This document shows, in pieces, positions 1,609 through 56,424 of a stretch of 64,000 bases of DNA (positions are counted from its first letter, which is position 1; each line of letters begins with the position of its first letter). The DNA comes from Deltaproteobacteria bacterium. Its GTDB lineage: Bacteria; Desulfobacterota; Binatia; Binatales; Binataceae. The notes beneath the pieces were generated by a model. That model saw only the letters and a program-made list of their open reading frames with translations. It ran no database searches and had not been told where the DNA came from. The position numbers and the translations under genes were made by a program. The stretch covers positions 1 to 64,000 of the forward strand of contig JAJXZF010000069.1 in NCBI GenBank assembly GCA_021780225.1. The letters are read 5' to 3'.

Positions 1609-1663
1609 AAAACGATCAACGCCGCCCTTGCCGTGCGCGGCGGTCTCCGGGCGTGATCGTTTT
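1609..1663. repeat. Long-spaced inverted repeat in the MBOAT / R-M intergenic gap
   Basis: AAAACGATCA at 1609-1618 is exactly inverted as TGATCGTTTT at 1654-1663. The pairing continues inward through CGCC/GGCG with one bulged A. The repeat lies 75 bp upstream of the MBOAT start. It could be a cruciform, a regulatory hairpin or a remnant of a small mobile element. The rest of the gap 1535-1901 holds no credible gene; a TATAAT-like hexamer at 1840-1845 could serve the downstream methyltransferase. Confidence 0.35.
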
Positions 1664-1901
1664 GAAGGGAGCATTGCGCTCACGAGCCCGGCCCGATCGC
1701 CATCCCCGCCGGCTGATCGAGTTCGGTCGCGGGTCCCCTGATAATCGCATTGCGGATTAGCCTGCCGTGGAACCGCATCGCCGGCGCAATGCCGCCGTAT
1801 TTGACTTCCGCTGGAACGCGCGAAACATTAATGATGGCGTATAATTGGTGCTCGTAGTTCGTCAAGCTTCCCGAAGGGCCGGTTCAAGGTACGCTGTTTT
1901 A

Positions 1902-2981
1902 ATGGGTTCGGTAAGAGAAGTGATCATCACGACCTCGTATCGTTGCGCGTTCGAGAACTACATCCGTGGGAAATCTCTTTCACCGCTGTTTCTTCAGGGC
2001 AATGCTCTCACGGTCCTAAAGGAACTCCCGGAGGATTCTATTGATTGCGCGATGACATCTCCGCCTTATTGGGGGCACCGTGAATACGAGAATGGCGGAA
2101 TCGGTCTCGAACACGACTATCGGGATTTCGTTACAGACCTTGCCGCGATTTTTCTCGAACTGAAACGAGCGATCAAACCCGAAGGTTCATTTTGGCTCAA
2201 CATAGGCGACACTTACGAGAACAAGGGGCTTGTAGGCATACCGTGGCGCGTGGCATTCGAGCTGATCGACTGCCAGGGATGGGTTCTTCGAAACAGTGTC
2301 ATTTGGAACAAAGTCAAAAGCGGTATGGACAACAGCAAGGACCGCCTGGGGAACGTTTACGAGCATGTCTTCCACTTCGTCAAGCGCGCGAAAGGCTATT
2401 ACTACAACGCTGACGCGATCCGTTCGAGGCCGCGCGAGGCAAAGATAATTAACGGCTCGGTAATTTCCGCAACTGGCGTTTCAGGTATCCGCTATAAACG
2501 TCAGATCGAGTTATCTACTGCCCTCAGCCCCGAGGAGAAGGCCGACGCTTTCAAAGAACTTAACGATTTACTTGCCGAAATGGCCACTGGTAAGGTTTCT
2601 GATTTCAGAATGATTATTCGCTCCCAACAGCGAGCAACTCATTCAGATAGCGAAATAGTGTCGGGTCGCGCCAGAGAACTCCGAAACAAAGGATTTTATT
2701 TTCTGCGCTACCACCCGAACGGGAGCAAGCCAGCTGATGTTTGGGACATCATCCCAGAGGACACGCAGAACAGAGAGGCGCACTTCGCGCCTTATCCCGC
2801 GGACCTATGCCGGCTCCCAATCCTTGCCACATGCCCGGAGGGAGGGCTTGTGCTTGACCCGTTCTGCGGAACGGGCACAACCCTTCTCGTCGCTCGCAAT
2901 CTTGGCCGCAAGTCTGTTGGCATTGACATCTCGCCCCAGTATCTCAGGCGCGCCGAGGAAAGGTGTGCGAGCCTTCTATGA
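1902..2981 (+). CDS. DNA methyltransferase of a two-gene type II R-M system (beta-class amino-methyltransferase)
   Basis: A 359-residue AdoMet-dependent DNA methylase. The catalytic motif TSPPYWGHREY comes first and the AdoMet-binding DPFCGTGTTLLVA lies near the C-terminus, the beta-class order used by N4-cytosine and N6-adenine enzymes. SPPY is most common in N4-cytosine methylases, so m4C is the more likely product. The start chosen is ATG 1902; an upstream in-frame start at 1845 adds 19 unconvincing residues. Its TGA overlaps the ATG of the NotI-like nuclease gene, so the pair is translationally coupled. The region is richer in A+T than neighbouring genes, suggesting acquisition by transfer. 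Confidence 0.85.
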   Translation: MGSVREVIITTSYRCAFENYIRGKSLSPLFLQGNALTVLKELPEDSIDCAMTSPPYWGHREYENGGIGLEHDYRDFVTDLAAIFLELKRAIKPEGSFWLNIGDTYENKGLVGIPWRVAFELIDCQGWVLRNSVIWNKVKSGMDNSKDRLGNVYEHVFHFVKRAKGYYYNADAIRSRPREAKIINGSVISATGVSGIRYKRQIELSTALSPEEKADAFKELNDLLAEMATGKVSDFRMIIRSQQRATHSDSEIVSGRARELRNKGFYFLRYHPNGSKPADVWDIIPEDTQNREAHFAPYPADLCRLPILATCPEGGLVLDPFCGTGTTLLVARNLGRKSVGIDISPQYLRRAEERCASLL

Positions 2982-3829
2982 AGGGCGTTGTCGAGTTATT
3001 TACACACTCTGTGGGTGAGCCGGACCAGGACTGGAAAACAATCGTCGAGCAGCAGCAATGCCCATTACTCGGCAGGCGCTGTTATAAGGTTCGCAAGAGC
3101 GAATCCGGCATTTCCATCGGCACATGCACCGTTCTCCATGGCCGCAAGCCTGAACCAATCATCATTTGTCCGACCCGGCTCATCGAGCGCCGTCAAATCT
3201 TTGTTGACTGCCTACACCTGCTTACGACCCATGAACCCGGCAATCAACTGCACATAGTTTCGGAAATTTCCATCCCCGGCGGCAGTGTCGATTATTTTCT
3301 TGTATCCGCACGGAATGGACGCGTTAGAGATTTCGTGGGTATCGAGCTTCAAACCCTTGATACCACTGGCGCCGTATGGCCCGAACGTCAACGCCTCCTG
3401 AGAACGCTTGGCGTTCCGTGTGGCGACGACGCCGAGAGATCGGCCAAATCGTGTGGCATGAACTGGAAGATGACAGCAAAGACAATTCTCATTCAGATGC
3501 ATCACAAAACCCGGACCTTCGAGCATGTGAACAAGAAGTTGGTTCTCGTTACGCAAGACAAACTGTTAGCGTACATGAGCAAGAAGTTTAACTTCGGTCA
3601 CCTGGCCAACCCGCCCACTGTCGGCGATTCCGTGCACTTCCATTCTTACCGCATGGCGGAGCAACCGGACCGCTCCTATCGGCTCGCGCTAGAGTCCAGA
3701 CTCAGCACCGACGCCGAGGGTGTCGCGGCGTGCCTGGGATTGCAGGCGGAGGCCCGTGTCGAACTCGAAGAAATCATAAGTGCTCTACAGGCCAAAATTT
3801 CACCGGTTACTGTATTCACACCGGTCTGA
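2978..3829 (+). CDS. NotI-like type II restriction endonuclease
   Basis: A 283-residue protein resembling the NotI family. Four cysteines (C28, C35, C50, C64) frame CPLLGRRCYKVRKS and GTCTV blocks, as in the NotI metal-binding fold. A nuclease core follows with D105 (GGSVDYFLV), then E123 and Q125 in GIELQTLDTTG, matching the D...E-x-Q active site of NotI. The ATG at 2978 overlaps the methylase stop as ATGA; an in-frame ATG at 2963 is less likely. NotI cuts an 8-bp GC-only site, but specificity cannot be read from sequence alone. Confidence 0.72.
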   Translation: MKGVVELFTHSVGEPDQDWKTIVEQQQCPLLGRRCYKVRKSESGISIGTCTVLHGRKPEPIIICPTRLIERRQIFVDCLHLLTTHEPGNQLHIVSEISIPGGSVDYFLVSARNGRVRDFVGIELQTLDTTGAVWPERQRLLRTLGVPCGDDAERSAKSCGMNWKMTAKTILIQMHHKTRTFEHVNKKLVLVTQDKLLAYMSKKFNFGHLANPPTVGDSVHFHSYRMAEQPDRSYRLALESRLSTDAEGVAACLGLQAEARVELEEIISALQAKISPVTVFTPV

Positions 3830-3843
3830 CCAAGCGGGAGCGT

Positions 3844-3967
3844 ATGAAAGCGAAACAGAAAATAATCCAGAAAACCTCCCGATCCAGCACCAGAAATCCT
3901 CAAGACCGAGGGTGACTGGCCTAAACCGGCGAAACAGAAGCGCGGCGTAGCGCGCTTCGCGGGATAA
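3844..3967 (+). other. Short coding relic in a 310-bp gap
   Basis: Just after the NotI-like gene an ATG (3844) opens a short Lys-rich reading frame. A neighbouring frame, open from a TAA near 3862 to a TAA at 3965-3967, encodes EILKTEGDWPKPAKQ, which reads like the tail of a small antitoxin-like protein. Joining the two would need a frameshift. I see nothing else in 3830-4139 apart from the terminator-like hairpin reaching into glsB. Confidence 0.15.
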
Positions 3968-4121
3968 CTCATAACAATCAATATACCGCAGGGGCGCACA
4001 GACGCGCTGCCGGACGCGGACGGCTTGGAGCCGGCCGGTCTTGCTTTTAATGCAAATCCGCGGCGCGACGATTTGTCCGCGGATTGGACTTCAGCGCGCC
4101 GCAATCTTCAATAATACCAAG

Positions 4122-4159
4122 AAAAGCGCCTGTCCGGGCTCAGGCCGCCGCGCGCTTTT
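4122..4159 (-). terminator. Candidate Rho-independent terminator over the glsB stop codon
   Basis: AAAAGCGC (4122-4129) pairs with GCGCTTTT (4152-4159), and an inner GCCTG/CAGGC pair extends the stem. Read on the minus strand, the hairpin ends in TTTTCTT. It straddles the stop codon of the YeaQ/GlsB-like gene, so it would end that transcript. Confidence 0.4.
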
Positions 4160-4701: not shown

Positions 4702-4821
4702 TTCAAGATCGGCGCTCGCGACCGGCTTGGCGGAAAGGGATCGATCGCCGCGCGCGCACCCTTTGCGCCGCCGCTCCGGCGCGCCATAATGATTCGTTCA
4801 TCCGCCGCGCGCGCTCGGCGA

Positions 4822-42458: not shown

Positions 42459-43397
42459 ATGCGAGAGAAGATTACGACCTTCGGTATCGCGCTCGCGCTC
42501 GGGTTGGGCGGATGCGCTTCGCAACAGCCGCCTCCGCCGCCTCTAACCCTCGTAACCCACGCCGCGCCGAAGGCGGAGACGGCGCCCGCGCCGGTAACCG
42601 GCGCGAAGCTTCTCGACGAGCAGCCGCCCGAAGTCAGACAAGCGGTCGCGGAGCACGACAAGACCGGAGCGTGGCCGTCGTACACCACGCCGGCATACGT
42701 GCTCTATCCCTACGGCGAAGTTGCCGAGCCGCTCATCAACTGCGCGCCGCTGCGCACCACCGATATCCAGCTTGAGCCGGGCGAGACCATCACCGACGTG
42801 GCGCTGGGCGACAGCGAGCGCTGGATGGTGACGCCGGCCTCCTCGGGCGATCCGCGCAACCCGACGCCGCACCTTGCGGTCAAGCCCAAGGCGGCAGGCA
42901 TCGCGAGCAACCTGACGATCTACACGACCCGCCACATCTATCACCTGAATCTGCGCTCGCGGCCCGGCCACGAGATGCAGGAGGTCGAGTTCTACTATCC
43001 CGACGATCTGCTTGCCGCGATGGCGCAGGCGGACCAACAGGCCAAGCAAGCGAGCGAGGATGCAAAGGCCGACGATCCGGCGGTGACGCCGCTCGCCTCG
43101 CTCGATCCGGGAGACCTGAACTTCTCGTACAAGGTCGCCGGGCCGAACGTGCCGTGGAAGCCGGTGCGCGCGTTCGACGACGGCAGCCACGTCTACATCC
43201 AGATGCCGGTTGGCATGAAGTCGAGCGAAGCGCCCGCCCTCCTGATCGCGGCGGGCGACGGCAACGAAATGGTCAACTACCGCGTGCGCGGCGACTACTA
43301 CGTGGTCGACCGTCTGTTCGACCAGGCGGTGCTGGTCTCCGGCGTGGGACGCGCGCAGGACCGCGTGCAGATCGCGTACACAGGCGCTGCGAGGTGA
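42459..43397 (+). CDS. trbG: Conjugal transfer protein TrbG (VirB9-like)
   Basis: A 312-residue protein with a lipoprotein signal (LALGLGGC). The core YPYGEVAEPLINCAPLRTTDIQLEPGE, read in pieces, the HLAVKPKAAGIASNLTIYTT block and the C-terminal VYIQMPVG region define TrbG/VirB9. It builds the outer-membrane core with TrbI and TrbF. GGAGGA precedes ATG 42459. Confidence 0.93.
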   Translation: MREKITTFGIALALGLGGCASQQPPPPPLTLVTHAAPKAETAPAPVTGAKLLDEQPPEVRQAVAEHDKTGAWPSYTTPAYVLYPYGEVAEPLINCAPLRTTDIQLEPGETITDVALGDSERWMVTPASSGDPRNPTPHLAVKPKAAGIASNLTIYTTRHIYHLNLRSRPGHEMQEVEFYYPDDLLAAMAQADQQAKQASEDAKADDPAVTPLASLDPGDLNFSYKVAGPNVPWKPVRAFDDGSHVYIQMPVGMKSSEAPALLIAAGDGNEMVNYRVRGDYYVVDRLFDQAVLVSGVGRAQDRVQIAYTGAAR

Positions 43398-43400
43398 GCG

Positions 43401-44532
43401 ATGGCGGCGACTCTGAAAGCGGTTCAGCAGACGCAGCGTCACGGCGGCGGCCGGCTTACGCGGACACTGGTTATCACGGTTGGAGCGGTACTAGGCGGGT
43501 CGTTGCTGGCGATGATGTTGGCGCTCCATTCCGCGTCGCAGCCGGTCGCGAGCGGAACGCTCAAGGATCAAGCGGTCGCGATTCCCGACATGGCGCGTCG
43601 GCATGCAGTGGCGGAGCTCGAAGCCGACGCAAAGCCGGTCACGATGCCGACGGCGGCTCCAGTGCCAGCGCTTCCCGCGCCTCCAGTAGTCGCGCGCCAG
43701 AACAATCCCGTCGCCAGACCGCCGAGCCGGCTCGCCGAGCTTGAGCAAGACGAATTCATCAAGGCGCTCGGCGCGCCACAGATGGTCGAGTCGTTCCACA
43801 ACCGCGCGCTCGACATCCCGAGTGTGCAGGCCGCGGCGGCCGGACTTTCAGGCATCCAGCAGGCGAGCAGCGATGTTGCTCCGGCAAGCCTGAAGCCGGC
43901 GCCATCGCCTTACACGGTAACCGCAGGCAGCGTGTCCGGCCGTGTTGGTCAGCGGCATCGATTCCGATCTTCCCGGCCCGGTCCTCGGGCAAGTGCGCGA
44001 GAACGTCTTCGACAGCGCGAGCGGCAGGTTCCTGCTCATCCCGCAGGGCACGCGGCTCATCGGCGCGTACCAAGCCGCACCGGCGTCCGGGCAAAGCCGC
44101 GTGCAGATCGCATGGCAGCGGCTGGTCTTTCCCGACGCGTCGAGTATGGATTTGCCGCGGATGCCGGGCGCCGACAGCGCCGGCTACTCGGGCTTCACCG
44201 ACGAAGTTGATCATCACTATCTGCGCACCTTCGGCACGGCGACGCTACTCAGCCTCATCAGCGCGGGGCAGATGGTGGGACAGATGGGCGCGTTCGGCGG
44301 CGGCTACGGCTTCGCGGGACCGATGGGCTACGGCTATGCGGCACCGAGCCAATGGGCGCTGATGGGCGAGATGGGCGGTTCGGCGGCATCCTCGCAGATG
44401 GGAGCGGTCGGGCAGCAGGCGCTCCAGCAAGGCATGAACAGTTCGCCGACGATCGATATTCGGCCGGGCTACCAGTTCAACGTGATGGTGACGCAGGATC
44501 TGGTGCTGCCCGGAGCGTACCGAGGCGATTAA
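43401..44532 (+). pseudogene. trbI: TrbI (VirB10-like), frameshifted
   Basis: The first frame gives a membrane helix (LVITVGAVLGGSLLAMMLAL), a Pro-rich periplasmic stretch and PYTVTAGSV. TrbI proteins continue with IPAVLVSGIDSDLPGPV, but LVSGIDSDLPGPVLGQVREN and the whole C-terminal barrel are in the +1 frame from about 43942 to TAA 44532. Seven bases (43935-43941) stand where nine are expected, so two bases appear deleted. Read in frame 1 the product would end in junk at 44210. If real, the outer-membrane pore is lost; assembly error is possible. Confidence 0.85.
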
Positions 44533-44567
44533 CCGAATCTCTGGAGTTCAGGAAAGGAGCGAGTCGC

Positions 44568-44855
44568 ATGAAGCTCAAACTGAAAGACAAAGAACCGCCT
44601 CCGGCGCAGCTCAGGCTGACGCTGCCCGGCAACTTCAAGGCGTTAATGGACGAGTATCTGCTCTACTTGCGCGACACGTCGCAGCGCGAGGCGGAGTTGA
44701 AGGAGGTCGCGCTTGAGATGTTGCGCCAGTTCGTCGAGACGGATCGGGATTTCAGGACGTGGCGGAAAGGACGGGCGGAGTCGGAGGTTCGCGGAGTGGA
44801 GAGCGGCGTGGTGGTGGAGCGGCAGAACGGGGCGGTTGGGGCGAAAGTGTCGTAG
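44568..44855 (+). CDS. DUF2274 protein, T4SS-associated
   Basis: A 95-residue soluble helical protein (LRLTLPGNFKALMDEYLLYL, ELKEVALEMLRQFVETDRDF). This small gene regularly follows trbI in integrative elements. Role unknown. AGGAG precedes ATG 44568. Confidence 0.75.
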   Translation: MKLKLKDKEPPPAQLRLTLPGNFKALMDEYLLYLRDTSQREAELKEVALEMLRQFVETDRDFRTWRKGRAESEVRGVESGVVVERQNGAVGAKVS

Positions 44856-44892
44856 GGCAAGATAAAGGCTTCCTCGTACCGTGGTGGTCAAA

Positions 44893-45492
44893 ATGGCTGT
44901 TTTGCCGCAAAAACACTTAACTTTTTCGCCCCGTACCGCGCAAAGCGCGCCCCGTACTTTTCTGCCCGTTCTGCCGCTTGTGCTGGAAGTGCTGCTGGCT
45001 GCGCCGATTCTGGCCTTCCGGCTGCTCAATCTACGCATCGCGTTCACCGGCAGCGCGTGCCCACCGGGCATCTACCGCGCGACCGCACTGCCGCCGGGAG
45101 ACACACTGGCGCGCGGGGAATTGGTTCTGGTCTGCCTGCCGGAAAGGCTGGCGCGCTTCGCGCTCGAACGCGGCTACCTCGCGCGCGGCGCGGGTTGTGG
45201 CGACGGCATCGAGCCGGTAGGCAAACGGATCGGCGCGATCCCAGACGACGTCGTCGCCGTCGCGCCGGGTCACGTCGCAGTCGATGGCCAGCGACTTCCC
45301 AACAGCACAAGCCGCATGCGCGACAGCCAAGGCCGAACTGTTCCGCACGTCGCGTTCGGAACGCATGCGGTCAAGCCGGGCGAGGTCTGGCTGTTCGGCG
45401 AAGCGGACGCGCGAAGCTGGGACTCGCGCTATTTCGGCGCGGTGCCGACAAGCGCGGTGCAGGCGAAACTCAAACCGGTGATCACCTGGTGA
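44893..45492 (+). CDS. traF: TraF-type signal peptidase of the conjugation system (S26)
   Basis: A 199-residue S26 peptidase. One N-terminal membrane helix (VLPLVLEVLLAAPILAF), then FTGSACPPGIYRA with the catalytic Ser, and GKRIGAIPDDVVAV with the catalytic Lys. TraF cyclises the TrbC pilin in RP4-like systems, removing C-terminal residues. ATG 44893 is used; GTG 44881 is possible. The four bases to the next gene suggest an operon. Confidence 0.88.
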   Translation: MAVLPQKHLTFSPRTAQSAPRTFLPVLPLVLEVLLAAPILAFRLLNLRIAFTGSACPPGIYRATALPPGDTLARGELVLVCLPERLARFALERGYLARGAGCGDGIEPVGKRIGAIPDDVVAVAPGHVAVDGQRLPNSTSRMRDSQGRTVPHVAFGTHAVKPGEVWLFGEADARSWDSRYFGAVPTSAVQAKLKPVITW

Positions 45493-45495
45493 GTC

Positions 45496-45888
45496 ATGGC
45501 TGACGGATTACATACTCGCGAGCAGGGGCTCAGGCTCCATCACCTCGCCAACCTTGGCGGCCTCGTCGCGCTCGCCGGACTCGATCGCGAGCCGCCCGAT
45601 TTGCTGCTTGGAGCGTTGCTCCGGATGGCCGCGAGCCTGACCGAACTTCCGGAACGCAGGCGCGCCGAGATCGCATCGCTCGGCCATCAGAAGTTCGACG
45701 AGCGCGCGAGCGCCAAGCGCGCGTGGAAGTCATGGGCGCGGGCCAATCAGCTTCACAATCTCACCCTGTCCGACGCGCAGATTCAGCGCATCGTCGTGGC
45801 GCTCGGCGGAGCGAAAAAGGCGGGCGGCGGTGAACGGCTCTACCGGCAGATGCTGGCGCTGCTCGACGGGAGGGCGGCCAATGAATGA
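45496..45888 (+). CDS. TraD-like relaxosome accessory protein
   Basis: A 130-residue protein with the small-TraD motif LGGLVALAGLDREPPDLLLG, common directly before relaxase genes in these elements. It is probably a relaxosome DNA-binding factor. It ends in the first codons of the relaxase gene (8-base overlap). Confidence 0.75.
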   Translation: MADGLHTREQGLRLHHLANLGGLVALAGLDREPPDLLLGALLRMAASLTELPERRRAEIASLGHQKFDERASAKRAWKSWARANQLHNLTLSDAQIQRIVVALGGAKKAGGGERLYRQMLALLDGRAANE

Positions 45889-47440
45889 TCTGCTGCGCAG
45901 CGATCTGTGGATGCGCCCGCATCCGGCGGGCGTGCGCAGCGAGCGCCATCCGCACGGACCGAGGTTTTGGTGGACCGGGCTGGGCAAGCGCGGCGCGCGA
46001 TCATTCCGCCAGGCCGGCCGGCTCAACACGCAACTCGACCGGCGCGGCGCAATTACGGCCGGCCAACCGCGCGCCTATATGCAGCGCAGCGTGGTGAAGG
46101 TTTCATACTCGCGCAACACCAAGTCGGCGTCGTGGGCGGCACACGGGCGATATTTGGCCCGCGACGGCGCACAGCGCCAGGGCGAGAAGGGACTCGGCTT
46201 CAACGGCGACCGCGACGATCTCAACCTCGCCAAACTGCTCGGCGAGTGGCAGAAGGCCGGAGACGAACGGCTCTTCCGCGTCATCGTCTCGCCGGAGAAC
46301 GGCGCCCGGCTCGATTTGCGCGAGCACGCGCGCGAACTGGCCGCGCAGATGGAGCGCGACCTGAACACAAAGCTTGAGTGGGCGGCGATCGACCATCACA
46401 ACACCGACAATCCGCATCTCCACCTCCTCATCCGCGGACGCGACGAGCAGGGCCGGCCGCTGTCGATCGATCGCGGCTACATCCAGTCGGGCATCCGCAC
46501 TCGAAGCGCCGAGATCGCCAGCCGCGAGCTTGGACTGCGCTGCGAGCGCGACTTGCTCAAGGCGCGCGGAGCCGCAGTTCGCCGCGAGCAGTTCACCGAG
46601 ATCGACCGCGACCTTCTGCGCCGCGCGGGCGCGAAGCATGTCGTCAGCTTCGACGGCAGGCAGCCGCGCGGTGACGCGGCGCGCGAGCGGCGGGCGCAAG
46701 AAATCGCGCGGCTCAAGTTCCTGGGTCGTATGGGCCTTGCCCGCAAGATCGACTCGGCAAGCTGGAAGCTCGCGCCGAATCTGGAGCGCACGCTTCGTGA
46801 GCGCCAGCTCGCCATCGACATCATCAAGAGCCGCGCGCGCCATCGCGACCAGATGCTCGATAAGCGCGCGCCGCTGGCCGTCACGAAACTCGCGCCCGGC
46901 CAGGAGCTAACCGGGCGCGTGGTCGGAACGGGCCTCGAGAACGAGACGCGCGACCGCCGCTACCTGATGCTCGAAGCGACCGACGGCAAGCTCCACTACC
47001 TGCAGCAGACGCCGGCAATCATCCGCGCGCGCGGCGAGGGAAAGATCGCCGCCGGCGAGGTCGTCACACTCGAAGGGCGCGAGTTCGACAAGGACGCGCG
47101 CAAAGTCCGTTACATCCGCGTCGAGCAGCACGGCGCGCTGCGCTCGATGCAGACGGACAAGCAGATCGGCAACCGGCTCGACCTTGAGACGCTCAAGACC
47201 ATCGAGCGCGACGGCAGGATCGATTCGCATGGCTGGAAAGGGTTTGCCGGCAAGTGGCGGCAGGCGATGAACGACCGCGTGCCGGTGCTGGAGCAGGCCG
47301 GGCTAATCGTCCGCAATCACTCCGCCAGCCGCGATTACTTCGTGCCGCCCGGAGCGGAGCAGAAACTTCGCGCCGAGATCGCGGCGCGCGAGCAGCGCGA
47401 ACACAAGCGACAACAACACGGAAAGGAGCGTACACGCTGA
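45881..47440 (+). CDS. Relaxase (VirD2/TraI-like, DUF3363)
   Basis: A 519-residue relaxase. The N-terminal part carries VSYSRNTKSASWAAHGRYLARD, a histidine cluster DHHNTDNPHLHLLIRG (the metal-binding HxH) and GRPLSIDRGYI. The C-terminal half is the DUF3363 region (LKFLGRMGLARKIDSASWKL, WKGFAGKWRQAM). It nicks oriT and pilots the strand into the recipient. No oriT was recognised by eye. The stop overlaps the traG start (TGATG). Confidence 0.92.
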   Translation: MNDLLRSDLWMRPHPAGVRSERHPHGPRFWWTGLGKRGARSFRQAGRLNTQLDRRGAITAGQPRAYMQRSVVKVSYSRNTKSASWAAHGRYLARDGAQRQGEKGLGFNGDRDDLNLAKLLGEWQKAGDERLFRVIVSPENGARLDLREHARELAAQMERDLNTKLEWAAIDHHNTDNPHLHLLIRGRDEQGRPLSIDRGYIQSGIRTRSAEIASRELGLRCERDLLKARGAAVRREQFTEIDRDLLRRAGAKHVVSFDGRQPRGDAARERRAQEIARLKFLGRMGLARKIDSASWKLAPNLERTLRERQLAIDIIKSRARHRDQMLDKRAPLAVTKLAPGQELTGRVVGTGLENETRDRRYLMLEATDGKLHYLQQTPAIIRARGEGKIAAGEVVTLEGREFDKDARKVRYIRVEQHGALRSMQTDKQIGNRLDLETLKTIERDGRIDSHGWKGFAGKWRQAMNDRVPVLEQAGLIVRNHSASRDYFVPPGAEQKLRAEIAAREQREHKRQQHGKERTR

Positions 47441-49350
47441 TGGCTGCAACATCTCTACCGTACCGGCCGCCGGGTAATCCGGCGCAAAATAAGATAACGG
47501 CGGTCGTCGCCGTCACGGCCGGGCTGATCGCCTTTCTGGCGCTGTGGACGGCCACCCAGAGAGCCGCCGCGATGCTCGGCTACGCGACCCCTCTCGGCCA
47601 ACCGGTCGCGACGCTCCCTCTATTCGGACCGCTTTACGCCCCATGGGCGATCCTGCTGTGGGCTTGGAAGTGGCGCGACGCCGGCGAGGCAAGTGCGGTA
47701 TTCGCCAGCGCCATGCGGCTCTTCGAGTACCCGTCGATCGCGGCGGCGCTGCTGGCGATGGGCGCGGCGCGGCTGGTCCGTGGAATTTCGCCGCGCATCC
47801 ACGACCTGCACGGTTCCGCCCATTGGATCACCAACCGGGAGGTTAAGGCCACCGCCCTTCTGAACAACGATGGCGTCTACCTCGGCACGTGGAACGGCAA
47901 GTTTCTTCGCCACGGGGGCTCCGAGCACGTACTCGCGTTCGCTCCGAGTCGCAGCGGCAAAGGCGTCGGTCTTGTGATTCCTACGCTTTTGACCTGGCCG
48001 GACAACGTCATGGTCCACGACATCAAGTGCGAGAACTGGGAGAAAACCGCCGGCTGGCGCCAGCACCAACTCGGAAGCCTGTGTCTCAGATTCGACCCGA
48101 CCTGCACTGACGGAACCGCGGCCCGTTTCAATCCTCTTGCCGAAGTCCGCACCGGTCCGCTGGAAGTGAAGGACGCTCAGAACATCGCCGACATTCTGAT
48201 CGATCCCGCAGGAAATACGCCGCGCGACCACTGGGACCTGACCGGCCACGACCTGCTGGTGGGAGTGATCCTCCACGTCATCTACGCCGAATCGAACAAG
48301 ACGCTGGCCGGATGTCTCAACTTCCTCAACCCGCCGGACCGCGACCAGGAGACCGTTCTCCGCTCGATGATCGATACGCGCCTGAGCCACCAGCTCACCC
48401 ACGAGGTCGTCGCGGGAGCCGCGCAGGCGGTCCTGAGCAAAGCCCCCAACGAGCGCGCGTCGGTGCTGAGCACGGCGACGCGATGTCTCTCGCTCTACCG
48501 GGATCCAATCGTGGTCGCGAACACCGCAGAATCCGACTTCGCGGTGAAGGATCTGATCTCGCACGAGCGGCTCATAAGCCTCTATCTGACCGTTCCGCCT
48601 TCCGATCTGGCGCGCACTCGACCGCTGATGCGGCTGATTCTCGCGCAGACCGTCCAGCGGCTGATGGAGCGTCCGCCCGGGCGAGACGACGGCCGCGCTA
48701 CGCGCCGCCTCCTGCTCATGCTCGACGAGTTTCCGGCGCTGGGACGATTGGACTTCCTGCAGACGGCCCTGTCCTACGCCGCCGGCTACGGCATTAAGGC
48801 GTATCTGATCGCGCAGGACCTGAGCCAGCTCTACGCCGCGTACGGACACGATGAGTCGATCATCAGCAATTGCAAGGTGCGCGTGGCGTACACGCCCAAC
48901 AAGATCGAGACGGCGCGCCTCGTCTCCGAGATGGCCGGCGTCACCACCGTGCATCACGAACACCGCACGCGCTCTTCAAACGGGACGACGGTCTCCGAGC
49001 CGGCGATGCGCCGTCCCCTGCTGACGCCCGACGAGGTGATGCGCCTGCCAGAAGACGCGGCCCTCGTCTTCGTCGCAGGGCATGCGCCGATCTATGCGAA
49101 CAAGCTTCGCTATTACGAGAATGCCGAACTGAGCGCGCGATCCGGCATTGCGGCCCCCGTCCACTCGGACCGAATCGAGCACGGGCATCAAGCCCAAGAA
49201 CCGCCAAAGTCCCTCATCACGAACGGCAACGGCACAGATGCAAACGGCACGAACGGAAATGGAGCAGTGTCTCACGCCGACCAGGGCGGAGGCGGCGCCC
49301 GCGAGCGGGATAAGGGCAACGAGCTTACCAAGGAGTGGCCGTTCAAGTGA
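47440..49350 (+). CDS. traG: Coupling ATPase TraG (VirD4-like)
   Basis: A 636-residue T4CP. Two N-terminal membrane helices, Walker A FAPSRSGKGVGLVIPT, Walker B RRLLLMLDEFPALGRLDFLQ, and SLYLTVPPSDLARTRPLMRL and YLIAQDLSQLY between and after. It links the relaxosome to the secretion channel. A low-complexity Asn/Gly/Thr tail (NGNGTDANGTNGNG) ends it. Start ATG 47440. Confidence 0.95.
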   Translation: MAATSLPYRPPGNPAQNKITAVVAVTAGLIAFLALWTATQRAAAMLGYATPLGQPVATLPLFGPLYAPWAILLWAWKWRDAGEASAVFASAMRLFEYPSIAAALLAMGAARLVRGISPRIHDLHGSAHWITNREVKATALLNNDGVYLGTWNGKFLRHGGSEHVLAFAPSRSGKGVGLVIPTLLTWPDNVMVHDIKCENWEKTAGWRQHQLGSLCLRFDPTCTDGTAARFNPLAEVRTGPLEVKDAQNIADILIDPAGNTPRDHWDLTGHDLLVGVILHVIYAESNKTLAGCLNFLNPPDRDQETVLRSMIDTRLSHQLTHEVVAGAAQAVLSKAPNERASVLSTATRCLSLYRDPIVVANTAESDFAVKDLISHERLISLYLTVPPSDLARTRPLMRLILAQTVQRLMERPPGRDDGRATRRLLLMLDEFPALGRLDFLQTALSYAAGYGIKAYLIAQDLSQLYAAYGHDESIISNCKVRVAYTPNKIETARLVSEMAGVTTVHHEHRTRSSNGTTVSEPAMRRPLLTPDEVMRLPEDAALVFVAGHAPIYANKLRYYENAELSARSGIAAPVHSDRIEHGHQAQEPPKSLITNGNGTDANGTNGNGAVSHADQGGGGARERDKGNELTKEWPFK

Positions 49351-49859
49351 GAAAGCCCGCACACGAAGTCTCCTGCTACTTGACGCAGGCCGAGGCCAGA
49401 GAGCTGCGGGAAGAGGCCGCCGCGCGCCATCTCTCGCTGTCGCGCCACCTGCGCCAATGCCTGCTCCACTACCGCGCGCTCAGCGCCGGGGCGGACGGCG
49501 GGATGCGGCAGCTTTCGATCGCGCTCTCCGACATTGAGGCCCGCCTCGCGCGCAGCGTCGAGACGCAGAGCAAACGGATAAGCGCGCTCTATCGCGAGCA
49601 ACAAGTGCTGTTCGCCATGATTGACCGGCTCGCCTTCATTCTCTCCGTACATACGCCGGAAGTTCCCGACGAGCTGCGCAACGCCGCGCTGGCTGCCGGC
49701 ACGCGGCTCTACAATCACTGGCGCAGCGCCGTGATGGAGATGACGGAAGGCGGCGCGTCGCTCGACTCTCTCAACCGGGTCAATGGATCCGCCGCGGAAC
49801 CGGCGGAACAGGAGGAAGCGGATGAGCCTGCAGGCGATTCAATCGACGCGGCTCGATGA
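49335..49859 (+). CDS. Ribbon-helix-helix-like conjugation accessory protein
   Basis: A 174-residue protein. The N-terminus (VSCYLTQAEARELREEAAAR, then HLSLSRHLRQCL) fits a ribbon-helix-helix DNA-binding fold; a helical region and an acidic tail follow. A gene of this kind often lies between traG and trbB. It may be a local repressor or relaxosome factor. The start overlaps traG, and its 3' end overlaps trbB by 38 bases. Confidence 0.6.
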   Translation: MAVQVRKPAHEVSCYLTQAEARELREEAAARHLSLSRHLRQCLLHYRALSAGADGGMRQLSIALSDIEARLARSVETQSKRISALYREQQVLFAMIDRLAFILSVHTPEVPDELRNAALAAGTRLYNHWRSAVMEMTEGGASLDSLNRVNGSAAEPAEQEEADEPAGDSIDAAR

Positions 49860-50781
49860 ACGGCTCCGCCGCGAGCTGGGCCCGGCGGTGCTCGCCGCGC
49901 TCGACGATCCCGACGTGATCGAGATCATCCTTAACCCCGACGGCCGCCTCTGGGTGGAGTCGCATAGTCATGGAATGCACGCGACCCAAATAACCATGCC
50001 AGCCGTTCAGGCCGAACGGCTCATCGGCACGGTCGCTTTTGCGCTTCACACCGTCGCCAACGACGCGCATCCGGTCATCGAATGCGAGCTGCCGCTCGAT
50101 GGGAGCCGCTTCACCGGTTGGCTCCCGCCGGTAGCCAGCGCCCCGGCTTTCGTGATCCGCAAGCACGCCCGCCTCATCCATACGCTGGGGAATTATGTGC
50201 GCGATCGAATCATAACAGCCGCGCAGGCCGATGCGTTCCGCGACGCGATCGCGGCCCGCGAGAACATCGTGCTGGCTGGCGGCACCGGCTCGGGCAAGAC
50301 CACGCTCGCCAACGCACTCATTCACGAGATGGTCGACGCCAGCGGCGAGAGCGAGCGCTTCATCATTATCGAAGACACTCGCGAGCTTCAGTGCGATGCG
50401 TCCAACGTGATGCAGCTTCACACCTCGGCCGCAGCCGATCTCACCTTTCTCACCCGCACCACGATGCGCGCGCGGCCCGACCGGATCATTATCGGCGAGG
50501 TCCGCGGGGCCGAAGCTCTTGGACTGCTCAAGGCCTGGAATACAGGTCACCCCGGCGGCGTCACCACCGTGCACTCCAACGGAGCCGCGGCGGCGCTGGT
50601 CAGGCTTTCGAGCCTCGTCCAGGAAGCCAACGTCCCACCGCAGCCGGAACTGATCGCCGAGACCGTCCATCTGCTCGCCTTTATAGCCCGCACGCCCAAT
50701 GGCCGGCGCGTCACCCAAATGGCCCGCGTCGTCGGCTACGATTCGTCTCACGGCTTCAAACTCACCCCGCTGGAGGGCTAA
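49822..50781 (+). CDS. trbB: Conjugal transfer ATPase TrbB (VirB11-like)
   Basis: A 319-residue secretion ATPase. Walker A LAGGTGSGKTTLANAL, the Asp box IIEDTRELQC, Walker B RPDRIIIGEVRGAEAL and the His box HPGGVTTVHSN are all intact. It energises pilus assembly from the cytoplasm. ATG 49822, after GAGGAAGC, is preferred. Confidence 0.95.
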   Translation: MSLQAIQSTRLDERLRRELGPAVLAALDDPDVIEIILNPDGRLWVESHSHGMHATQITMPAVQAERLIGTVAFALHTVANDAHPVIECELPLDGSRFTGWLPPVASAPAFVIRKHARLIHTLGNYVRDRIITAAQADAFRDAIAARENIVLAGGTGSGKTTLANALIHEMVDASGESERFIIIEDTRELQCDASNVMQLHTSAAADLTFLTRTTMRARPDRIIIGEVRGAEALGLLKAWNTGHPGGVTTVHSNGAAAALVRLSSLVQEANVPPQPELIAETVHLLAFIARTPNGRRVTQMARVVGYDSSHGFKLTPLEG

Positions 50782-50783
50782 CC

Positions 50784-50960
50784 ATGAATCTCCAATTCCT
50801 GTTGCTCAGTCTGCTCAGTGACCTCGCTTTCTCTGCCACGCTGTTCGGAATCAAGGAACGGCGCCAGGCGATTTTTTTTGACTTGATCGCATTGGGAAGT
50901 CTCTTCCCACTCATGCCCTGGACACTCTCGTTGGCCCTCAATTTCAAAATGTGGATTTGA
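50784..50960 (+). CDS. Small hydrophobic protein between trbB and trbC
   Basis: 58 residues with two hydrophobic segments (LQFLLLSLLSDLAFSATLF and DLIALGSLFPLMPWTLSLA) separated by KERRQ. It starts two bases after the trbB stop and ends 29 bases before trbC. No equivalent is known to me in RP4-like trb clusters. Possible inner-membrane accessory; function unknown. Confidence 0.55.
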   Translation: MNLQFLLLSLLSDLAFSATLFGIKERRQAIFFDLIALGSLFPLMPWTLSLALNFKMWI

Positions 50961-50989
50961 CCGAGAATTTCAAAAAGGAGGCGTGCAAA

Positions 50990-51334
50990 ATGCCGCACCC
51001 GAGAATCTTTTCGAAATTCGCGAAGTGGATCAGATGGATCGCGTACGCATACGGGGTCGTCACGATAGCGTGGCCGGCGCAGGCGCTGGCCACCACCGGC
51101 ATCGGCGTCCTGCCGTGGGACCAGGCGCTCAACACCATCCAGATGGATATGCAGGGCACCGTCGCCCACGCCGCGACCACCATCGCGGTCATCGCGGCCG
51201 GCCTCACCTGGACTTTCACCGAGCATGGCACCGGCGCGCGCAAGATGTCGGCGGTCGCGCTGGGCGGCGCCGGCGCGCTCGGCGCAACCCAGCTCATGCT
51301 GGCGCTCTTCCCCTTCGCGCCGGCGATCCTCTGA
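50990..51334 (+). CDS. trbC: Pilin TrbC (VirB2-like)
   Basis: A 114-residue pilin precursor with a long signal (WIAYAYGVVTIAWPAQALA) and two hydrophobic helices (AATTIAVIAAGLTWTF and AVALGGAGALGATQLMLALF). AAAGGAGG precedes ATG 50990. The neighbouring traF peptidase may cyclise it. Its stop overlaps the trbD ATG by one base (TGATG). Confidence 0.9.
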   Translation: MPHPRIFSKFAKWIRWIAYAYGVVTIAWPAQALATTGIGVLPWDQALNTIQMDMQGTVAHAATTIAVIAAGLTWTFTEHGTGARKMSAVALGGAGALGATQLMLALFPFAPAIL

Positions 51335-51660
51335 TGGACCTGCAACGCACGCCGATCCATCAGTCGCTGGTCCGGCCAATCCTGCTGGCCGGCGCCGAGC
51401 GGCGGCTCGCGATCCTCAACTGGCTCTTCATGGCCGCCCTCATCTTCGGCGTCGGGCTTCATCTCTACACGCTCGCGCTGGCGACGCTGCTCGGCACGGT
51501 CGGCCACTGGGGACTCAGGCAGGCGGCCAAGTTCGACCCGCAACTCAGCGAAGTCTATGTCCGCCATCTCCACTACCAGCGTTTCTACCCGCCGCGCGCA
51601 GAGGTGACGGCGCGAGCCGCGCCGATCCATCCGGCGGTTCCGCAAATCCGAAGGTACTGA
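51334..51660 (+). CDS. trbD: TrbD (VirB3-like)
   Basis: A 108-residue inner-membrane protein: TPIHQSLVRPILLAGAERRL opening and paired hydrophobic helices (FMAALIFGVGLHLYTLALA). VirB3 proteins partner the VirB4 ATPase, whose gene follows after three bases. Confidence 0.9.
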   Translation: MDLQRTPIHQSLVRPILLAGAERRLAILNWLFMAALIFGVGLHLYTLALATLLGTVGHWGLRQAAKFDPQLSEVYVRHLHYQRFYPPRAEVTARAAPIHPAVPQIRRY

Positions 51661-51663
51661 ACC

Positions 51664-54222
51664 ATGCTGTTACGGGAATTCAGAAACTTGCGGCGCAAGC
51701 GCGACCCGGCGCTGGGCTTCTCCGACCTGCTCAACTACGCGGCCCTGGTCGATTCGGGCGTCATCCTGCTCAAGGACGGCTCCCTGCTCGCCGGCTGGCG
51801 CTATACCGGTCCCGACCTCAACTCGGCCGGCGCCGAGGAGCTGACCGCGCTCTCGCACCAGGTCAATTCGGCGCTGGCCGGGCTGGGCGACGGCTGGGCG
51901 ATGAACGTCAATCTGATTCGCCACGCGAGCGCCGGATATCCGGAGCGCGGCGCCTTGCCCGATCCGGTCACCGCGCTCATCGACGAAGAGCGGCGGCGTC
52001 ATTACACGGCCGAAGGGCGGCATTTCGAGAGCGCGCTCGCCCTTACGCTCACGTGGACGCCGCCGACCGAGATGCAATCGCGCGCGGCCGGGTTCCTCTT
52101 CGAGAGCGCCGCGCGAAGCACGAACTGGGAGCGCACGCTCGAGTTTTTCAAGACCAGCCTTGCCGAGTACGAGGACGCGCTGAGCGCCCGGCTCGCTCTT
52201 TCGCGCATGGACGATGCGGCCCTGCTCGCCCATCTGAACGCCTGCATCACCGGACGGCACGATCCGATCAGGCCACCCGAGGACGGCAGCTATCTTGACG
52301 TGCTGCTCGGCTGTCACGAGTTTCACGCCGGCTTCCGTCCCATGCTCGACGATCTTCATATTCGACCTATCTCAATCGCCGGCTTTCCGCTCGCCTCCTG
52401 GCCGGAGGTGACCGCGTTCCTCGATGAGTTGGCGCTGCCCTATCGCTGGTCCACACGCTTCATCTTTCTCGATCCGGCCGAGGCGGAGCGCGCGCTCAAA
52501 ATCCAGCGTCGCAACTGGTTCCAGAAGCGCCATGGCCTTGGCGGCATGATCAAGCAGGTCTTCAGCAACGGCGCCGCGCAGAGCTTCGAGAACCGCGACG
52601 CGGTCGCGATGGCGCACGACGCCGACGAGGCGCTGGCCGAGGCCAGCTCGTGCCGGGTCCGGTTTGGTTACTATACGAGCGCCATCATTGTTACCGGCGA
52701 AGACGCCGTTGTCGCCGACGCCAACGCGCGCGAGATCGCCAAGCAGCTTCAGCATCACGGCTTCTCCGCGCTGATCGAGCACGTCAACGCCAACGAAGCA
52801 TGGCTCGGCTCGCTGCCCAGCCACGGCTACCGCAATGTCAGACGCCCGCTCATCCACACCCGCAACCTCGCCGACTTGATCCCGACCACCAGCGCATGGG
52901 CCGGCGAAGAATTCAATCCGTGCCCGTTCTACCCGGAGAACAGCCCCCCGCTGATTTATGCGGCGACCACCGGCAGCACGCCGTTTCGCCTCAATCTCCA
53001 CGTCGGCGATGTCGGCCACACCCTGATCTTCGGTCCGACCGGCTCGGGTAAATCGACCCTGCTCGGACTTCTGGTCGCGCAGTTCTTCCGTTACCCCGAC
53101 GCCCAGGTCTTCTGCTTCGACAAGGGGCTGTCCGCGCTCGTGCTCGCCGCCGCCTCCGGCGGCCGGCATTACGATTTGGGCGAGAGCGAAATCGCCTTCT
53201 GTCCGCTCGCCCGCGTCAATGACGAATCGGAACGGACCTGGGCGGTCGAATGGCTTGAGATGCTGCTCGCACTCCAAGGCGTCGCGATCCTGCCGCAGCA
53301 TCGCAAGGCCCTCTGGCGCGCGCTTGAGTTGCTCGGTGAAAGCGAGCCTGATGCACGCACGATCACCGATCTGATCCGCCTCCTTCAGGACCAGACGCTG
53401 CGCGACGGCCTCAACTTCTATTCGGTGCACGGTCCGATGGGCCGCTTTCTCGATGCCGACCGCGATGGAATCGAGGAATCCCGTTTCATCACCTTCGAGA
53501 TCGAAGCGCTGATGGCGATGGGCGAGAAAATTCTGCTTCCGGTCCTTACTTATCTGTTTCATCGCATCGACGGCCGGCTTGACGGGCGCCCGACCCTGCT
53601 GGTGCTGGACGAGGCGTGGGTGATGCTCGCCAACGGAACCTTCGGCGCCAAGGTCGAGGAATGGCTGCGTACTCTCCGCAAGAAGAACGCCGCAGTCGTA
53701 CTCGCCACGCAGAGCCTGACCGAGGTCGCAAACTCGCCGATCCGCGATGTGATCCTCGAATCGTGCCCGACCAAGATACTCCTGCCCAACCCTGAAGCGC
53801 AGAATCCGGCGACCAGCGAGCTCTACCGCAAATTTGGCCTCACCGACCGGCAGATCGAAATCGTCGCGACTGCAGTCCCCAAGCGGCAGTACTACTATCT
53901 CTCGCCCGCCGGGCGGCGGCTCTTCGACCTCGGACTCGGACCGGCGACGCTCGCCTTCATCGGCGCCGGCTCGAAGGCTGACATTATCGAAGCCCGCAGA
54001 TTGATCGCCTCGCACGGCCGCTCATGGCCGATCGAGTGGCTGCGTGCGCGCAGCCTTATCGAATGGGGGGAACAGCTCGCAAAATCCTACGGACCGACGG
54101 AACTCCAGCTTCGCGAACTTGCGATCCGCAACGGTCACCTGAACGGTGGCCATTTCAATCAGGCAAATGGCGCCGGCATTCCACCCCATCAAGGAGCAAA
54201 CACGCATGGAACGATCACGTGA
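51664..54222 (+). CDS. trbE: TrbE (VirB4-like ATPase)
   Basis: An 852-residue AAA+ ATPase. Walker A HTLIFGPTGSGKSTLLGLL, Walker B PTLLVLDEAWVML, and VLATQSLTEVANS between them and the end; the N-terminal half is the VirB4 scaffolding region. It powers channel assembly and substrate transfer. Length is normal for the family. The trbJ ATG lies within its last codons. Confidence 0.95.
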   Translation: MLLREFRNLRRKRDPALGFSDLLNYAALVDSGVILLKDGSLLAGWRYTGPDLNSAGAEELTALSHQVNSALAGLGDGWAMNVNLIRHASAGYPERGALPDPVTALIDEERRRHYTAEGRHFESALALTLTWTPPTEMQSRAAGFLFESAARSTNWERTLEFFKTSLAEYEDALSARLALSRMDDAALLAHLNACITGRHDPIRPPEDGSYLDVLLGCHEFHAGFRPMLDDLHIRPISIAGFPLASWPEVTAFLDELALPYRWSTRFIFLDPAEAERALKIQRRNWFQKRHGLGGMIKQVFSNGAAQSFENRDAVAMAHDADEALAEASSCRVRFGYYTSAIIVTGEDAVVADANAREIAKQLQHHGFSALIEHVNANEAWLGSLPSHGYRNVRRPLIHTRNLADLIPTTSAWAGEEFNPCPFYPENSPPLIYAATTGSTPFRLNLHVGDVGHTLIFGPTGSGKSTLLGLLVAQFFRYPDAQVFCFDKGLSALVLAAASGGRHYDLGESEIAFCPLARVNDESERTWAVEWLEMLLALQGVAILPQHRKALWRALELLGESEPDARTITDLIRLLQDQTLRDGLNFYSVHGPMGRFLDADRDGIEESRFITFEIEALMAMGEKILLPVLTYLFHRIDGRLDGRPTLLVLDEAWVMLANGTFGAKVEEWLRTLRKKNAAVVLATQSLTEVANSPIRDVILESCPTKILLPNPEAQNPATSELYRKFGLTDRQIEIVATAVPKRQYYYLSPAGRRLFDLGLGPATLAFIGAGSKADIIEARRLIASHGRSWPIEWLRARSLIEWGEQLAKSYGPTELQLRELAIRNGHLNGGHFNQANGAGIPPHQGANTHGTIT

Positions 54223-54979
54223 ATTTGTGTTGCGGGTAGGCTGCGCGCTGCTCGTGTTGTTGTGTCTGCTATTCGTCACACCGCGCGCCGCTCACGCGCA
54301 GTTCGGCGGCACGCAGACCGTGTTCGATCCGGCGATGTTCGCGCGCCAGTTTCAGCAGCTCCAGCAGGAGACCCAGGCGGTCGCCGCCGAAGCGCAGCAA
54401 CTCCAGTACATGATCAAGAACACCACCGGCGGGTCCGCCGGCGTATGGCAATCGGACCAATCGATGCTCGACGAACTCGGCGGCCTCATTCAGCAGCAGG
54501 GCGGCCTGTCTTACTCGCTCGGTAATCTGCAGGCGCAATTCCAACAGCATTTTCCCGGCTACGCCGTCCCGCAGAACCCGGACCAGCAGGAAGCGCAGAA
54601 CATCGCGACGACGCTGAATACCCTTAACGGTACGCTGGCAGACGCCCAGGGGCAGGCGCAGAATTTTGCCAATGAGCAGGCCCAATTCGCCGAACTGGAG
54701 GGCATGAACCGAACCGCAACTGGACGCTTGCAGGCGATCCAGGTCGGCAACGAAATCGCCTTGCAGCAAGCGCAGCAGATTCAGATGCTCCGGCAGTTGG
54801 TTGTCGCGATGATCAACGCCCAGAACGTCGCCGCCGCCAATCGCATCAACGGCCAGGCGGCCGAGGACGCCTCGGTCCAGCGCTGGCTCAGCGCCGGGCC
54901 AACCGTTCCGTTTTCCTCCACCATGCCCGACAATGGGCTGACCAGTTTCGGCTCGCCGCCAGGTGGAGGACCGCAATGA
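54206..54979 (+). CDS. trbJ: TrbJ (VirB5-like)
   Basis: A 257-residue secreted protein with signal peptide (LLVLLCLLFVTPRAAHA) and Gln-rich helices (FARQFQQLQQETQAVAAEAQ, LQQAQQIQMLRQLVVAMINA). The C-terminus carries PFSSTMPDNGLTSFG (54908-54952), shared with the next gene. ATG 54206 follows AAGGAGC. VirB5 proteins sit at the pilus tip. Confidence 0.88.
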   Translation: MERSREFVLRVGCALLVLLCLLFVTPRAAHAQFGGTQTVFDPAMFARQFQQLQQETQAVAAEAQQLQYMIKNTTGGSAGVWQSDQSMLDELGGLIQQQGGLSYSLGNLQAQFQQHFPGYAVPQNPDQQEAQNIATTLNTLNGTLADAQGQAQNFANEQAQFAELEGMNRTATGRLQAIQVGNEIALQQAQQIQMLRQLVVAMINAQNVAAANRINGQAAEDASVQRWLSAGPTVPFSSTMPDNGLTSFGSPPGGGPQ

Positions 54980-55323
54980 AGAAGCTCATCGTTTTCGTCG
55001 CGATCGGCGTCGTCGTCGGAGGAATGGGATGCAATCGTCATTCGGAAACGAACGGAAGCGATCCGATCGCGTTGCTCGCCTCGCCTCAAGCCGCGACCAA
55101 TTACGACTATCCCTTCTGGAACGACCAGTTTCAGCGCAAGACCGACGCGTGGCAAAAGGCGCTCACCTTCTGCGACCAGCCCGATCACAAATTTCTCATC
55201 AATTGCCAGCCCGTACTCGCCGTTGCCGCGCCGCGAATCCCTTTCTCAACGACAATGCCGAAGAATGGCCTGACCAACTTCGGCGGGATGCGACCGGAGG
55301 CTAATCCCCAGCCCACGAAATAG
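54976..55323 (+). CDS. TrbK-like lipoprotein
   Basis: A 115-residue lipoprotein (lipobox GGMGC, Cys 19) in the trbK position, where RP4 encodes the entry exclusion factor. It shares no obvious motif with RP4 TrbK except signal and size, so exclusion is inferred from place. The C-terminal PFSTTMPKNGLTNFG (55240-55284) nearly repeats the tail of TrbJ. The start overlaps the trbJ stop (ATGA). Confidence 0.6.
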   Translation: MKKLIVFVAIGVVVGGMGCNRHSETNGSDPIALLASPQAATNYDYPFWNDQFQRKTDAWQKALTFCDQPDHKFLINCQPVLAVAAPRIPFSTTMPKNGLTNFGGMRPEANPQPTK

Positions 55324-55341
55324 GCATTCTTGGAGTCGTTC

Positions 55342-56424
55342 ATGAACAACCTCGACAATATCGCCCAAACGTTTCAATGGGCGGGCCAGCGTTACATGAA
55401 CATCATGCAGCCGTTGGCCGAGAAAATCTTTTTCGGTTTGGTTCTGATCGAAATCATCGTCACCTGCGTTCACTATGTTGCGGACCAAGATCAACCCGCC
55501 AGGCTGTTCGCCGAATTTCTTAAGAAATCTCTCGCCTTGGGGTTTCTTTACGCGATGATCGCCAACGCCCCAGTTTGGTTTAATGCATTGCTAAGCAGCT
55601 TCGCGGCACTCGGCGGTCAGACGGCGGGAATGACCGACTTGAGTCCGAGCACGGTGTTCAACAACGGCCTTACGATGTTCCAGACCATCTACCGGGGTTT
55701 CGCGAGTCTCGGATGGTTCCATCTTACGATGGCCTCGCTCATCGCGCTCATCGCCGGCTTACTCATGTTTTTGTCCTTCGTCCTGATTGCCGGTCAAATG
55801 CTCCTGGTCCTCTCCGAGGCCTACGTTGGGCTGGGCGGCGGTGTCATCCTGCTCGGCTTCAGCGGCTCGCGCTGGACCGTCAAGTTCGCTGAAAATTTCA
55901 TCGGCTGGATCGTCGGCATCGGCGTCAAGCTGTTCTTCCTCTACCTGCTGGTAGGCGTCGGGATGACCATCACAGCCGGCTGGAACTCCGCGCTAACCGG
56001 CTGGACCGTCGCTGATCCAACTTTGCCGCTGACGATCGCCGGCGGCGCGCTTATCTTCATGCTGCTCAGCTGGGAGATTCCCAACGTCGCCGCCCGGATC
56101 GCCGGATCATCCGTGAGCCTAAATCTCGCCCACGCCTTTGAGGCGGGAATGGCTGGCTACAGCCTTGGCCGAATCCTCAAAAGCCGTGATTCGTCGGATG
56201 CGCAACCGGCAGCCACACCCCTCGCCCAGAACCTCGAAGCTGGCGAAAAAGCAACGACCAACAGCCAAGCGCCGACCACCAAACTTCCATCAGCCTCGCC
56301 ATCCTCGAGCGGAAGCCGCACTAGCGCTGCTCCCTCAAACCCAAAGACCACCGCGCTCGCCACCCAGGCCTCGCCGACAACTCAAGTCGGGCAGAACAGC
56401 AGCCGCCTCACGCGGCAGTATTGA
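55342..56424 (+). CDS. trbL: TrbL (VirB6-like)
   Basis: A 360-residue polytopic membrane protein: [71 protein letters not shown]. The C-terminal 80 residues are a polar Ser/Thr/Pro-rich tail. VirB6 proteins line the inner-membrane channel. ATG 55342 is used; TTG 55330 is possible. Last trb gene. Confidence 0.93.

Follow-up and report, generated by a model that had tools for sequence, protein, structure and literature searches.

When the gene for a NotI-like nuclease lies beside a methyltransferase gene, do the two form a working restriction-modification pair, and does the likeness to NotI extend to the DNA word that is recognized? Two genes near the start of the 64,000-nucleotide stretch of DNA analyzed here (the window) raise this question. 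The first, at 1902 to 2981 on the plus strand (ATG at 1902, TGA at 2981, with an in-frame TTG at 1845 as an alternative start), encodes a DNA amino-methyltransferase (MTase) of 359 amino acids. The second, at 2978 to 3829 on the plus strand (ATG at 2978, TGA at 3829), encodes a NotI-fold restriction endonuclease (REase) of 283 amino acids. Both genes are full length in the window. The MTase stop and the REase start share the letters ATGA at 2978 to 2981 (plus strand), an overlap through which the two are probably translationally coupled, and they would move together as a module.

A putative cognate MTase gene adjoining the REase gene is a feature of Type II systems, and Pfam, fold, and key residues bear out the preliminary description of a compact NotI-like pair at these positions. 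The locus is a complete, ordinary Type II restriction-modification pair with a NotI-fold endonuclease. As the best explanation of the evidence as a whole, a Type II pair made up of a NotI-family REase and a probable N4-methylcytosine (m4C) MTase is held with high confidence. How would such a pair work? The MTase would methylate a short, probably palindromic site and so protect the host DNA. What is known of the respective families suggests that the modification is probably m4C and that the REase, a predicted member of the NotI family of PD-(D/E)xK nucleases, presumably acts as a dimer, uses its Cys4 knot to hold a structural metal, and would cut unmethylated incoming DNA at the site of the MTase.

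The endonuclease and its kinship to NotI

The REase matches the Pfam NotI family (PF12183; E value of 2.7e-06, 27.3 bits against a curated cut-off of 22) and is classed by PADLOC as a Type II restriction enzyme (2e-09); NCBIfam returned no match to it. The fold is more telling. An AlphaFold2 model of the REase (mean pLDDT of 89.6 and pTM of 0.89, with residues 256 to 260 poorly modeled) retrieves NotI (3bvq) first in Foldseek, with an E value of 4.5e-08 against 0.029 for the first other match. Aligned with the NotI-DNA complex 3c25 in VIA-align, the model scores a Z of 18.9 (241 residues, rmsd of 3.4, 17% identity), and the best entry other than NotI reaches a Z of 7.8. The structural similarity to NotI on which the preliminary description depended is therefore present in the model.

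The window REase, NotI (3bvq and 3c25), and PF12183 have in common the fold, the order of the four cysteines, and the D...ExQ residues, while NotI is the longer protein (383 amino acids versus 283). In the NotI sequence the motifs run CP, SC, VC, CP and then FDW and LEIQTMD, and the order is the same in the window REase; the NotI sequence was aligned to a Xanthomonas relative (E value of 1.1e-06), and the correspondence to the window REase was drawn by eye. The link to NotI is thus carried by Pfam, the fold, and the order of the motifs. It is remote in sequence, because searches of the PDB sequences with either the window REase or a profile of 76 REases miss NotI. A PF12183 search of the window's own genome and 14 control genomes likewise gave no match, but a protein query did find the gene, and this silence probably reflects a weakness of the search's first look.

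Which residues are kept? The Cys4 site consists of C28 (3059 to 3061), C35 (3080 to 3082), C50 (3125 to 3127), and C64 (3167 to 3169), spanning 3059 to 3169 on the plus strand. The active-site residues D105 (3290 to 3292), E123 (3344 to 3346), and Q125 (3350 to 3352) follow at 3290 to 3352 on the same strand. NotI itself is described as having iron in its Cys4 site and a glutamine in its active site (PMC4081073). Conservation was read from an alignment of 76 REases, comprising that of the window, 74 of the 80 relatives kept from the genome_contigs collection, and one from a viral contig; six loci (L046, L073, L082, L102, L105, and L107) were set aside, some being cut or broken and others for simplicity only. 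None of the 76 departs from the four cysteines, E123, or Q125, and D105 is kept in 75 of them, so the preliminary reading of a four-Cys site with D...E-x-Q residues stands. The one exception (L101:95-931) has Val for the catalytic Asp, retains the Cys4 and ExQ residues, and is possibly inactive. Given such degenerate relatives (L101 without its Asp; an REase split and bearing internal stops in genome G377), the window REase could in principle be dead or silent, leaving the MTase to work as an orphan, but it is of full length and retains each of the seven key residues, and this is very improbable.

The methyltransferase and its product

The assignment of the MTase to its broad family is straightforward: it matches PF01555 (N6_N4_Mtase; 9.4e-45) in Pfam and the Type II MTase model MTase_II in PADLOC (4.5e-67). 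Two motifs could be read from the translation, namely motif IV, TSPPYW, at residues 52 to 57 (2055 to 2072, plus strand), and the AdoMet-binding motif I, DPFCGTGT, at residues 319 to 326 (2856 to 2879, plus strand). Motif IV, which belongs to the S/TSPPY class, therefore precedes motif I. TSPPYW is kept in 80 of 82 family MTases; of the two exceptions, L055 is truncated at a contig edge.

Does the enzyme modify cytosine or adenine? A TSPPY-type motif IV, as opposed to DPPY or NPPY, points to m4C, and by this rule the product is probably m4C. The alternative is a Type II pair whose MTase makes N6-methyladenine (m6A). The best NCBIfam models for the MTase are indeed adenine specific, though all score far below cut-off, and the m6A enzyme CcrM is among its PDB relatives (1.1e-15). 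In the PDB, however, CcrM is outscored by an annotated N4-cytosine MTase (4.3e-19), the top match there being a "putative modification methylase" (4.2e-23), and the near-universal TSPPYW of the family also speaks against m6A. Of the rival readings this one survives best, yet it is unlikely, and an m4C MTase is the reading carried forward.

The recognition site

NotI-type enzymes invite the assumption of an 8-bp site made up of G and C, and the preliminary description made it, giving GCGGCCGC at 13141 as an example. The pair would then be a NotI isoschizomer cutting GCGGCCGC, with its MTase guarding over a thousand sites in a GC-rich genome. The example itself is correct. The window has 20 copies of GCGGCCGC, where shuffled sequence averages 14.85 (20 or more in 9 of 100 shuffles), and the assembly has 1255, a frequency that, together with the NotI fold and active site of the REase, fits an isoschizomer. 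As an aside on their distribution, all 20 copies in the window lie within 7411 to 38268, and the last 25.7 kb (38269 to 64000), which include a set of conjugation genes, have none.

Against this reading stand the mere 17% identity to NotI over the 241 aligned residues and the results of an avoidance test. The test compared the count of every 4-bp and 6-bp palindrome, and of a choice of 12 8-mers, with the expectation of a maximal-order Markov model. The samples came from the window's genome (384,055 bases, from 20 stretches plus window positions 4801 to 64000) and from two sister genomes, G121 (338,703) and G397 (370,672). GCGGCCGC is not more avoided in the window's genome (observed/expected of 0.82) than in G121 (0.76) or G397 (0.72), a comparison that is weak because a system acquired recently may have left little mark on word counts. 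CGGCCG behaves similarly, at 0.91, 0.93, and 0.89, respectively. The test also had a weak positive control in GTCGAC, the XamI site, which stands at 0.19 in G121, a carrier of a XamI-type endonuclease, versus 0.34 and 0.27, being low in all three. Nor does a NotI fold need to mean 8 bp, since EagI, a NotI relative with the same GGCC core, recognizes the 6-bp CGGCCG. The claim of an 8-bp GC-only site, which derives from the fold, is accordingly not upheld, and an isoschizomer of NotI, like an m6A enzyme, seems unlikely.

The Type II pair with a NotI-family REase probably reads some other word. Among words that scored low in the samples, three were recounted in seven whole genomes of the genus, and none proved peculiar to the window's genome. 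CCTAGG occurs 25 times (11 to 62 elsewhere in the genus), compared with 617 for its reversed counterpart GGATCC (406 to 752 elsewhere); CCCGGG occurs 452 times (360 to 867); and CGTACG occurs 403 times (234 to 766), the second lowest per base after G399. Further low words in the samples, TTATAA, TCTAGA, CATATG, CTTAAG, and others, have small counts. Among the papers listed by literature searches, none showed a specificity for this short NotI-type sub-family, its plasmid members included. In our judgment the odds are about even that the site is something other than GCGGCCGC or a GGCC-centered word; another GGCC-centered word comes a clear second, and GCGGCCGC itself is a distant third.

Another approach to the site comes from Acinetobacter sp. 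NEB 394, which we take to be the source strain of BspHI and whose plasmid pBspH9 carries a relative of the pair. BspHI recognizes TCATGA, and the pBspH9 pair might be BspHI. Plasmid pBspH1 of the same strain carries, at L214:1219-3820, a helix-turn-helix (HTH) gene, a 381-amino-acid gene without a Pfam match, and a convergent MTase gene, possibly a restriction-modification set and another BspHI candidate. Other systems on the NEB 394 plasmids (all of pBspH1, 2, and 4 to 9 was examined, and the first 69,999 of the 85,229 bases of pBspH3) are a PstI-family pair, a BREX system, and a Type I system. The pBspH9 relative offers a handle on the site because the methylome of NEB 394 has been read by PacBio sequencing (PMC9122589, PMC8259958); the methylation motif of the pBspH9 pair does not appear in the passages found in those two papers. 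Reads of Acinetobacter species H are public (SRX10618618, named in PMC8259958), and the motifs to be set aside there include GTAGAT (BREX), AGCACC, and CGCCC. Given the size and good conservation of the sub-family, the methylome of one carrier would probably label at least its closer relatives. Should the site prove new, the REase could be a usable restriction enzyme.

A mobile sub-family at an apparent exchange spot

How rare are such enzymes? The preliminary description thought NotI-type enzymes with 8-bp GC-only sites rare, and its rarity was an overstatement: one pass over genome_contigs brought up 140 encoding relatives, of which 80, at 55 to 83% identity, were kept. Elsewhere the harvest was thinner, with one relative in viral_contigs, one distant match in phages, and matches in 9 of 395 genomes in a phylum sample, the window's own included; the seven other members of the genus or family listed in that sample had no REase match, an uneven spread. 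The plasmid collection yields 27 matching records, six of them covering at least 80% of the query, and five of those six already bear the label "NotI family restriction endonuclease." Short NotI-fold restriction-modification pairs are therefore common and form a large mobile sub-family already known to automatic annotation. The fold alone is no proof of an 8-bp GC-only site.

The two genes keep company. In 76 of the 80 loci retained, the REase gene has an MTase gene upstream of it on its own strand, and in the remaining four (L046, L082, L101, and L107) the REase starts at a contig edge. MTase and REase distances correlate over 81 pairs (Pearson coefficient of 0.81, with 0 of 999 permutations as high), and the genes have therefore largely travelled together. 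Have they also crossed between phyla? A quick REase tree, in which 30 of 73 inner branches are weak and phylum labels come from record titles, shows 24 phylum changes over 73 labeled rows with 15 labels, against a minimum of 14 and a shuffled mean of 44.4. Pseudomonadota account for 12 changes, 6 of them forced by well-supported branches. Repeated transfer between phyla is likely on this showing, and the tree also suggests a degree of vertical inheritance, as in Bacteroidota.

Plasmids of Klebsiella, Enterobacter, Serratia, and Acinetobacter, as well as a 3.6-kb E. coli plasmid, carry pairs of an MTase and a NotI family REase in the same two-gene layout as the window (three records opened), with REases 53.5 to 61.1% and MTases 61.5 to 73.1% identical to those of the window over the matched parts. 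All these pairs are plasmid-borne, unlike that of the window. In E. coli, 3 of 5426 genomes match the Klebsiella pair, and the one match that covers most of it is on the 3625-bp plasmid NZ_AP042580.1, where a DNA-methyltransferase and a NotI-family REase are annotated beneath it. Two Xanthomonas and Pseudomonas plasmid pairs (L111 and L112) also have a PF12183 REase directly 3' of an MTase, but these MTases are m5C enzymes (PF00145), unlike that of the window, and their REases are 27 to 29% identical to the window REase over 56 to 64% of its length. Decay can be seen as well: in G377 (L003 and L010) an REase relative lies in two pieces, one with internal stops, and a stop-bearing MTase relative sits on another contig.

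In the window itself, the pair differs from its surroundings. GC content is 50 to 57% across the pair versus 59 to 66% to the left and mostly 60 to 68% from 4501 on, and GC3 is 0.59 for the MTase and 0.62 for the REase versus 0.77 for mnmG and 0.85 for the MBOAT gene. The stretch from 1627 to 4127 is not colinear with G397, which has about 565 bp there, without the pair, between flanks that are colinear (91, 84, and 90% identical). In G121, shared sequence resumes near 3939, and about 2.7 kb of other DNA occupies the spot: an Eco57I-type MTase and a XamI-type endonuclease (PF09572; 1.2e-114) at L134:2033-4622, on the minus strand. The whole G121 genome gives no REase match, and in G397 the pair is absent from the MBOAT-mnmG spot, the place checked. 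Eight further relatives have neither the pair nor the MBOAT gene in the stretch beside mnmG; with that gene missing and some of the stretches short, they are not evidence on the spot. Because unrelated restriction-modification pairs fill one gap in two genomes of one genus, the MBOAT-mnmG gap looks like an exchange spot. A broader picture, less likely than not, is that a widespread, mobile, short NotI-fold sub-family (15 phylum labels), partnered by an m4C-type MTase, reads a word that lacks NotI's GGCC core, and that in this genus the MBOAT-mnmG gap swaps whole restriction-modification pairs.

Elsewhere in the window, a run of conjugation genes lies at 42459 to 56424 on the plus strand. Pfam finds among them a relaxase-like protein, a T4SS coupling protein, a VirB11-like ATPase, a VirB4/TrbE-like protein, and TrbL; VirB9/VirB10-like genes were recognized by eye. 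At 59518 to 62669 (plus strand), a gene for a TIR-domain protein (PF13676, 5.4e-22, with PADLOC matches to short-Argonaute-associated families) overlaps a short prokaryotic Argonaute gene (PADLOC pAgo_I, 2.3e-149), which together look like a SPARTA-like defense pair. The conjugation genes possibly belong to an integrative conjugative element that carries this Argonaute pair.
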